Below are positions 6,374 to 9,411 of a DNA stretch of 13,730 bases, piece by piece. Source of the DNA: an uncultured Rhodocyclaceae bacterium. Lineage in GTDB: Bacteria; Pseudomonadota; Gammaproteobacteria; Burkholderiales; Rhodocyclaceae. Within the stretch, counting starts at the first letter, position 1. Each line of letters begins with the position of its first letter. Location of the stretch: contig CAIYZZ010000238.1 of the NCBI GenBank assembly GCA_903930805.1, positions 1-13,730 on the forward strand, written 5' to 3'. Both the position numbers and the translations under genes were made by a program. The notes beneath the pieces were generated by a model, which saw only the letters and a list, made by a program, of their open reading frames with translations, ran no database searches and was not told where the DNA came from.

Positions 6374-6382
6374 CCCCCCCCC
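6374..6382 (+). repeat. Poly-C tract (9 C) in the apbC leader
   Basis: Nine consecutive C lie 19 bases before the apbC start codon, outside the coding region and upstream of the GAGG ribosome-binding site. A -10-like TAAAAT is at 6354-6359, without a clear -35. A length change here would alter only the leader, not a reading frame. Confidence 0.6.
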
Positions 6383-7493: not shown

Positions 7494-7503
7494 TCCGTTT
7501 CCT

Positions 7504-7599: not shown

Positions 7600-7626
7600 T
7601 AAAGATCGGCACGATTCCGCCGATAG
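7600..7626 (+). promoter_or_regulatory. Sigma-28 (FliA) flagellar promoter of flgPT
   Basis: TAAAGATC at 7600-7607, 11 bases, then GCCGATAG at 7619-7626. The established FliA consensus is TAAA, 15 bases, GCCGATAA. Here TAAA and GCCGATA are exact, with exact spacing, and only the last base differs. Transcription would start near 7633, leaving a leader of about 33 bases before the flgP ATG at 7666. The position directly upstream of a flagellar-type operon supports function. Confidence 0.88.
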
Positions 7627-7665
7627 CACAACGTAATATCTCCGAACAAAAAGGAAAGGTGCATC

Positions 7666-8229
7666 ATGAAAAATGGCATGGTTTTTGCCCCCCCCCCCCC
7701 CCGCAACTCCCTCCTTCTGCTGAGTAGCATTTTCTCGCTGACGGTTTTATCCGGGTGCGCCACTCAGTGCTGCGTCGCTCCGCCACCAGCACCAGTGCCC
7801 TTGGTGGCGACACCCACCAAATTGATGGCCACGGGATACGGTAGTCCCGGCAGTTACTCCCAGTACACAACCAGCCAACGGAAGCTCATGGCCATCCGGG
7901 CGGCTCAAGTAGACGCCTATCGCAACCTCGCCGAGCGCGTCCATGGCTTTCGGGTTTCGGGCAGCACTTCTGTTTCTGCGTTCGTCACGCAAAGCGATAC
8001 GGTTCGCTCCTATGTCGATGCATTCATCCGCGGTGCCCGCGTGGTCAATACCGCCACAATCGCCGACGACAACGTAGAAGTCACGGTCGAGATCGATCTG
8101 ACACCGCAATTTCTCCAATGCTTCACTTACGGTGGAGGATGCGCTGCTCAGCCGCACGTCGTCACCACCTACCCGACCTGCGCCGCGTACGGTTGCGTAG
8201 CGCCCAGCGCCAACTACTACAGCTTCTGA
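7666..8229 (+). CDS. flgP: FlgP-like flagellar outer-membrane lipoprotein (LPP20 family)
   Basis: A 187-residue lipoprotein. ATG 7666 follows the strong ribosome-binding site AAGGAAAGG. The signal peptide has a hydrophobic stretch from residue 16 and lipobox LSGC with acylated Cys31; Ala at +2 suggests outer-membrane sorting. The LPP20-type domain spans about residues 70-145 (MAIRAAQVDAYRNLAERVHG, then GARVV and VEVTVEIDLT), the pattern seen in Vibrio FlgP, an outer-membrane basal-body ring/disc protein needed for motility. The flgT-like gene starts 3 bp after its stop, and a sigma-28 promoter precedes it. Oddities: codons 8-13 contain a C15 run encoding Ala-Pro4-Arg inside the signal-peptide n-region, and both single-base slips give early stops. 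Cys35-36 and a Cys-rich tail (four Cys in the last 40 residues) are also unusual. Family assignment is confident; the FlgP name rests on family, neighbour and promoter. Confidence 0.82.
   Translation: MKNGMVFAPPPPRNSLLLLSSIFSLTVLSGCATQCCVAPPPAPVPLVATPTKLMATGYGSPGSYSQYTTSQRKLMAIRAAQVDAYRNLAERVHGFRVSGSTSVSAFVTQSDTVRSYVDAFIRGARVVNTATIADDNVEVTVEIDLTPQFLQCFTYGGGCAAQPHVVTTYPTCAAYGCVAPSANYYSF
7688..7702 (+). repeat. Poly-C tract (15 C) inside flgP
   Basis: Fifteen consecutive C, preceded by TTTTTG, form codons 8-13 of flgP. With 14 C the frame reads GCA ACT CCC TCC TTC TGC TGA. With 16 C it reads CAA CTC CCT CCT TCT GCT GAG TAG. Gains or losses of three only change the proline count. This is the architecture of a slipped-strand phase-variation tract, though such runs are also sequencing-error prone. 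Confidence 0.9.
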
Positions 8230-8232
8230 TCC

Positions 8233-9411
8233 GTGTCGCGACGAAGCACTGTCGTGCGGACATGCGGCAGCTTTCTGCTGTGCGCTTTGCTGTTGCCTCT
8301 TTGGGCCTTGGCTCAAGAGGTGATGGTCGAGGGGCAGGCGTTGATCCGCAATGGCGATATGGGGCAAGCCCGCGAATTGGCCTTGCAGCGTGCGCTTGGT
8401 CAAGCGGCGGCATCCGGTTCCGCGCGCATCAGTTCCGTAGCGCAAAGTCAGCCCGGTACGGTACAGGATTCGACACGACTGGCGGCGACAGCGTGCACAA
8501 AAAGCTCACGCATCCTGGGCGAATCGATCAATGGCGAACAACTCACCTTGAACGTGGCCGTCACTCTCGATCAAGCACCGGATTGCACACCACGGTGCCA
8601 GCCCGGATACACCAATAAAGTAGTGGTCACCGGCATCGCCATGGAGTTTCCGGAACAGATCGAACGCAAAGAGACGTCAACCATTGTCTACGCCACGGCA
8701 ATCGAACTGGCGCGCAAGCTTAAGAACCAGAACCACCTGCTCGTCGATCATGATGAAGGGATGTTTCCATATTCTTCCCCTGCCCGTGCACCGGAGCCTT
8801 TTCTGCTTCCGGGCGACAAGGAAAGCCGTTTTGTCTCACTGGCGAAGTCGCGGCGAGCCCAATATGTCATTTCCGGCATCTATCGCGATTTCGCCATACG
8901 CCGGGAGTGGTTGGCATTCTCGAAGCGGGTGATAGTTATCGATATCTATATTCATGATGGCGCGAACGGCACCTTACTCGCGCAACGACGCTTTTCGCGC
9001 ACGGCGAGCGGCGACGTAACGCTGAAAACTTCGCCGCCCATCGGCAGCGAAGTTTTCTACGCTACCGACCTTGGACGTGCCTGGGGGGCGCTGCTGGACG
9101 AGATCGCCATATGGACGACCGATAACGCAGCCTGTCTGCCCTTCATCGCTCGCGTATTGAAGGTCGAGAGCGGACAGATTTTTCTCGACATGGGCGCGGA
9201 AGCGGGCATCGCGACGGGAAACACACTGCGCCTACATACTTTGAAAGAGCCGCCAGTCATGACTTCGACCGGACTCCTGCTGGGACAGGAAAAGCAACTC
9301 GGCATAAAGCTGAACTTGAAATCTGTTTATCCGGGATTCTCGATCGCAGAAGTGGCCGAAGTGGGATTCAGCCTGAAAATTCGGCCGGGCGACTTGCTGT
9401 ACCTGCAATAA
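8233..9411 (+). CDS. flgT: FlgT-like flagellar basal-body H-ring protein
   Basis: A 392-residue periplasmic protein with a Sec signal peptide (basic SRR n-region, hydrophobic core, ALA-Q cleavage near residue 27). The three-part FlgT layout is visible: an N-terminal domain of about 28-115 starting EVMVEGQALIRNGDMGQARE; a middle domain of about 127-292 with KVVVTGIAMEFPE, a YATAIELARKLKNQNHLLV helix/strand and AQYVISGIYRDFAI; and a C-terminal domain of about 300-392 with IARVLKVESGQIFLDMGAEA. FlgT forms the H-ring around the LP ring in Vibrio and helps place the T-ring and stator. The start is GTG 8233, 3 bp after the flgP stop, with no good ribosome-binding site, which suggests translational coupling; GTG 8254 is an alternative. 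If flgP is frame-shifted off, coupling and transcription polarity could silence flgT too. Cys88/118/122/301 might form disulfides. Confidence 0.87.
   Translation: MSRRSTVVRTCGSFLLCALLLPLWALAQEVMVEGQALIRNGDMGQARELALQRALGQAAASGSARISSVAQSQPGTVQDSTRLAATACTKSSRILGESINGEQLTLNVAVTLDQAPDCTPRCQPGYTNKVVVTGIAMEFPEQIERKETSTIVYATAIELARKLKNQNHLLVDHDEGMFPYSSPARAPEPFLLPGDKESRFVSLAKSRRAQYVISGIYRDFAIRREWLAFSKRVIVIDIYIHDGANGTLLAQRRFSRTASGDVTLKTSPPIGSEVFYATDLGRAWGALLDEIAIWTTDNAACLPFIARVLKVESGQIFLDMGAEAGIATGNTLRLHTLKEPPVMTSTGLLLGQEKQLGIKLNLKSVYPGFSIAEVAEVGFSLKIRPGDLLYLQ

Follow-up and report, generated by a model that had tools for sequence, protein, structure and literature searches.

A predicted flagellar gene of an uncultured Rhodocyclaceae bacterium carries a run of 15 cytosines close to its start. 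The run lies in a stretch of 13,730 nucleotides, hereafter the window, which is contig C238 of a 3.25 Mb draft genome (558 contigs; completeness 95.1%, contamination 5.69%). An earlier note on this DNA had proposed that the length of the tract switches the assembly of a flagellar ring, and with it motility. From the sequence, the tract, here called C15, probably allows slippage to raise or lower the output of the gene, flgP, with ease.

Results

The flgP-flgT locus

The features of the locus are the following:

7600-7625, + strand: predicted FliA (sigma-28)-type promoter motif, TAAA-N15-GCCGATA, zero mismatches
7651-7659, + strand: ribosome-binding site AAGGAAAGG, ending 6 nt 5' of ATG 7666
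7659-7661, + strand: GTG in the lipoprotein frame at C14, overlapping the ribosome-binding site
7666-8229, + strand: flgP, encoding an LPP20 lipoprotein of 187 aa; ATG 7666 is the strong start, and ATG 7678 lies in the same frame
7673-7675, + strand: ATG that shares the lipoprotein frame when the tract is C13 or C16; distance to the ribosome-binding site, 13 nt
7688-7702, + strand: C15 tract, exactly 15 C, flgP codons 8-13 (A-PPPP-R)
7721-7723 and 7725-7727, + strand: stops TGA (at C14) and TAG (at C16) for the strong start, from the frame table
7747-7758, + strand: lipobox LSGC of FlgP, Cys 31 (codon 7756-7758)
8233-9411, + strand: flgT, 392 aa, GTG start 8233, 3 nt past the flgP stop

The product of flgP scores 40.5 bits against LPP20 (PF02169; Pfam cut-off 25.9), its C31 is invariant in an alignment of 20 sequences (A1), and a profile of 20 FlgP relatives matches the solved flagellar-motor FlgP 8z5n with an E value of 2.5e-20. 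Given its LPP20 domain, lipobox and similarity to a solved FlgP, the predicted product of 7666-8229 can be classed as a FlgP. For the product of flgT, FlgT_N and FlgT_M lie above the Pfam cut-off and FlgT_C below it (18.1 bits vs 27). No clear ribosome-binding site was seen upstream of GTG 8233; a relative with 87% identity (P0125) has the same flgT start. A flgT accompanies the flgP match in 59 of 86 loci, a count that includes many short flanks and some duplicate loci.

The promoter motif was identified with what we take to be the FliA consensus. Nothing else in the window comes within one mismatch of that motif; 0.11 such sites were expected, and 21 of 200 shuffles gave at least one. With a looser pattern, FliA-like sites were found 5' of 10 of the 31 distinct flgP-like genes of the family (0.48 expected from mononucleotide shuffles) and 5' of 11 of the 81 non-family ones (1.23 expected). 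The genome also encodes a FliA that scores above its cut-off. Motif and FliA gene together support a predicted sigma-28-type flgP-flgT operon. The earlier note had described a near-perfect FliA promoter, a strong ribosome-binding site and a GTG start 3 bp after flgP; the promoter match proved exact, and the other two elements were found as described.

Tract length and reading frames

The 15-C run that the earlier note had placed in codons 8-13 is indeed there, and so are the early stops that it expected before the lipobox after a shift of one base. At C15, ATG 7666 opens the 187-aa lipoprotein. At C14 the same start yields 18 aa and halts at the TGA, at C16 it yields 20 aa and halts at the TAG, in both cases before the lipobox Cys codon. 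Thus flgP carries one of the features that mark a contingency locus: a repeat near the 5' end of the ORF in which a change of one unit shifts the reading frame.

The claim that no functional protein would then be made is overstated. The strong start is truncated ahead of the lipobox, but a start codon is available 5' of the tract in all three frames: ATG 7673 (at C13 and C16) and GTG 7659 (at C14) read through the signal peptide with no stop between. Because these two codons are in frame at other lengths, loss of functional protein is not strictly implied. GTG 7659 is probably weak as a start; from its overlap with the ribosome-binding site and the 13-nt distance of ATG 7673 we infer low, not zero, expression. 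A comparable arrangement is reported from Neisseria meningitidis, in which 19 of the 55 strong repeats have several in-frame ATG starts (PMC5084427, accessible text).

Poly-C runs in the genome and the genus

Under a first-order model, 0.0024 runs of at least 15 are expected in 3.25 Mb, and all-C coding of A-PPPP-R has a probability of about 0.0015 when codon usage is taken from six genes of the window. For runs of at least 10, the same model expects 3.3 in the genome of the window and four were found: C15, an in-frame C12 in ftsK, a C10 and one at the beginning of a contig. The C10 lies, as we read it, shortly after a signal-like start. The C12 (L041 1206-1217, contig C205; gene named from its sequence) may serve as a natural control tract for that of flgP.

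Across 19 genomes of the genus there are 73 G/C runs of at least 10. With 30 of these 73 locations read, runs of at least 15 occur in at least six other genomes (G001, G004, G005, G008, G009 and G013), and hence in at least 7 of the 19 with the window's own, both counts being lower bounds. Three of the long runs in other genomes (L111, L118, L123) lie at or near contig ends. In G005, a C21 (L105 1502-1522) stands in a frame resembling a caspase-like peptidase, and translation beyond the tract seems to be out of frame. The genus is rich in long G/C runs, which makes the first-order null too generous, and the significance it gave to C15 was dropped. With runs of at least 15 in at least 7 of 19 genomes, tract length alone therefore proves little.

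The same abundance of runs would fit neutral expansion, that is, slippage in a tolerant n-region of the signal peptide with no regulatory role, frameshifts being purged by purifying selection. The in-frame tract of ftsK agrees with this, as do the open frame at C15 and the finding that close relatives without a C run differ in residues at the place of the tract (A1). A second flgP whose tract does not keep the frame, described below, speaks against it, and we consider neutral expansion a possible yet rather unlikely account.

FlgP relatives

The nearest named relatives of the window FlgP come from metagenome-assembled genomes and strains labelled Rhodocyclaceae, Zoogloeaceae, Azonexus and Zoogloea. 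A FlgP match is present in 27 of 395 family genomes, with a scattered distribution. In a search interval that opens 330 nt 5' of the point where the profile match starts and closes 90 nt 3' of it, a G/C run of at least 8 was found in 2 of 116 distinct FlgP-profile genes, namely in the window and in G064, a genome from another genus of the family (95% complete). Both belong to the 35 family flgP-like genes, among which four have less than 200 nt upstream, four are weak LPP20 matches and one copy, that of G118, starts past the tract position; none was among the 81 others. Counts of relative genes were made without L041-L045 and without the loci taken from mrp flanks or from the poly-C survey; the 116-gene set and the FliA-site counts are also without L140-L142 and without matches that start late in the profile, and one poly-C check among family loci is without L042-L045 and loci from L076 on. 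Relatives lacking a C run had been named in the earlier note as a finding that would count against its model, and among the 116 genes this is partly the case; one other flgP does have a poly-C tract. Conservation of poly-C across the family was ruled out, G064 alone sharing the tract among the genes seen.

G064 carries three flgP-like genes in tandem (L134, contig C283). In the middle one, a C11 directly follows an ATG, which in the assembly is out of the lipoprotein frame. As we read it, no ATG, GTG or TTG occurs in that frame from the tract to the lipobox, and the TTG available upstream lacks a good ribosome-binding site. The body of the gene is 95% identical to that of G118, with a dN/dS of 0.128 over 147 codons, which indicates that purifying selection has maintained the frame even if the assembled start misses it. 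An assembly error of one base might explain the C11. At the genus-wide rate of 73 runs of at least 10 in 54.1 Mb, borrowed here for G064, the expected number of coding-strand tracts within 60 nt is 0.001 for 27 further genes and 0.004 for 100. This low expectation, for a tract that follows the ATG and does not keep the frame, is what weighs against neutral expansion.

Protein databases gave further leads. Three metagenome FlgPs (P0019, P0040, P0057) begin with 7-residue units repeated in tandem, the pattern that translation through a 7-nt repeat would yield. Such repeats, with at least 10 matches, were found in 3 of the 120 FlgP homologues listed (of 167) and in none of 60 FlgTs. Among 117 of the 120 listed homologues (167 in all), proteins without a signal region make up 6 of 11 in the clade of the window and 15 of 106 elsewhere (Fisher p 0.004, the clade motif having been chosen post hoc). 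A late start call can also remove the signal region, as in P0078, where the annotated start falls after a usable in-frame ATG, so the short proteins are a weak lead, and we rejected them as proof of OFF alleles. The 7-residue repeats and the missing signal regions may be taken as weak leads for the locus.

A five-copy TCCGCTC array in G298 (L140 340-374) reads RSPLSALRSPLSAL, but is intergenic there, upstream of a gene that we take to be nitroreductase-like. It was found in 1 of 395 family genomes, and TCCGCTC was ruled out as a common family repeat.

Genomic context

If the assembly or the reads were in error, the tract might have another true length, or the contig might be a chimera joined near position 7500. 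A draft in 558 contigs with 5.69% contamination leaves room for this, and among congeners there are contigs whose first bases are, or lie close to, a long run of G/C. The surroundings of flgP are unusual as well: flgP follows mrp in none of the five congeners inspected, and TrkH shares just 48-54% identity with its congener counterparts next to TrkA. In those five congeners, the gene after mrp is presumably dCTP-deaminase-like, directly in three and after a small lipoprotein-like gene in one, and another gene in the fifth. On the other side, Mrp is 82-92% identical to that of 17 congeners and TrkA 79-88% (17 full-length matches); both are genus-like, and both halves of the contig therefore fit the genus. 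Moreover, the window FlgT occurs on 4 contigs in the protein database, the longest of 21,674 bases, and C15 keeps the ORF open. Taken together, we regard such an error as improbable.

Contamination as the source of the contig was rejected, since Mrp and TrkA do not support it; gene order still differs on both sides of the flgP-trkH stretch. Between 7494 and 11358, the order of genes is unlike that of the inspected congeners, with flgP-flgT after mrp and a divergent TrkH beside a genus-typical TrkA. Transfer, rearrangement or a chimeric contig are its possible origins, and the flgP-trkH region gives the impression of having been acquired or rearranged. The 187-aa FlgP of the window is absent among the 120 of 167 homologues listed, the closest of which is a 142-aa protein with 96% identity. 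A second poly-C run, C9, lies at 6374-6382 in the metG-mrp intergenic region, just 5' of the likely mrp start.

Tract length and motility

In the model of the earlier note, C14 and C16 would both be OFF states of ring assembly and motility. Truncation of the strong start in both other frames agrees with an all-or-none switch; the start codons in every frame do not. The genome also holds a second flgP-flgT pair without a tract (L133 6606-8305, contig C201), whose products are 46% and 34% identical to those of the window. No FliA-like site was found at this pair by the looser pattern, and the genes near it are presumably MSHA/type II pilus-like. Flagellin, moreover, is present in 18 of the 19 genus genomes and FlgP in 3, which again argues against an ON/OFF switch of motility.

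The title of a paper on Rhodobacter sphaeroides reportedly calls FlgP essential. The H-ring of Vibrio is built from FlgO, FlgP and FlgT (PMC6375700, accessible part). Published flgP phenotypes point both ways. In the accessible texts, flgP of C. jejuni is grouped with paralysed-flagella genes (PMC3928116) and counted among genes essential for fitness (PMC7677240), whereas deletion in Pseudoalteromonas merely weakens swimming and a V. cholerae flgP mutant is termed slightly motile (both PMC10634453). Precedent for an ON/OFF outcome exists in H. pylori fliP, where poly-G slippage is described as an ON/OFF mechanism of flagellation (PMC11756786, available text); the earlier note had also pointed to homopolymer slippage in Helicobacter fliP.

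Given the second pair without a tract, the distribution of FlgP and the divided phenotypes, the proposal that the tract switches ring assembly and motility was overstated. A plain motile/non-motile switch is doubtful and an all-or-none one with C14 and C16 OFF improbable; a change in the accessory ring seems likelier.

Discussion

The window combines a C15 tract, a start in each frame and an operon behind a promoter motif, and elsewhere in the family a second flgP joins an out-of-frame C tract to a body under selection. We favor the reading of flgP as a simple-sequence contingency locus whose output is graded, not all-or-none. Through slipped-strand mispairing, C15 would gain or lose single bases. 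At C15, and at lengths that differ from it by multiples of three, ATG 7666 would read into the lipoprotein; at other lengths it would be stopped before the lipobox, leaving only the weaker ATG 7673 or GTG 7659 in frame. Expression of flgT, whose GTG lies 3 nt downstream, would drop with that of flgP through lost coupling, and cells within one clone would vary in the FlgP and FlgT dose of the accessory rings of the motor. From slippage to graded output, coupling and motor effect, these steps are inferred, and our confidence in the contingency locus is moderate because the start regions of G118 and four others are not visible and the phenotypes point both ways.

The lic2A gene of Haemophilus influenzae is said to be repeat-controlled with several start codons. 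It and the repeats of N. meningitidis concern mainly surface-structure genes of host-adapted species in which variation has been observed, whereas flgP here is known from its sequence. Like the tract in flgP, the meningococcal repeats stand just after starts in different frames, and their length sets both the start used and the level of expression (PMC5084427, accessible text). H. pylori fliP shares with flgP a G/C homopolymer in a flagellar gene and a proposed switch by single-base slippage; it differs in encoding part of the export apparatus and in having a tract of 8 G (PMC11756786, available text). FlgP is instead a predicted accessory ring lipoprotein with an N-terminal tract of 15 C, and extra starts and a second copy may buffer its changes. 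As in motors of the Vibrio type, an LPP20 lipoprotein FlgP is paired with FlgT, both parts of the H-ring (PMC6375700, accessible part). Unlike in those motors, FlgP here is scattered through the family and absent from most flagellated congeners, and FlgT_C falls under the Pfam cut-off. In the literature searched, which was mostly non-subscription, with most subscription papers outside its coverage, we found no description of a homopolymer switch in flgP, in keeping with the earlier note, which knew of no poly-C switch in betaproteobacterial flgP.

More tentatively, the flgP signal peptide of Rhodocyclaceae might be a recurrent target of hypermutable repeats, acquired independently as poly-C in at least two lineages and as two 7-nt repeats elsewhere. 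Clones would then keep mixed doses of an accessory outer-membrane ring, graded by starts in three frames. We hold this wider reading to be possible rather than probable.

If flgP is such a locus, an accessory part of the motor, and not the export apparatus or the sugars of the filament, would be under chance genetic control. Such control would operate in bacteria that live outside hosts, and the build of the motor would vary within a single clone. As the state would be readable from DNA, heterogeneity of the motor could be tracked in metagenomes.
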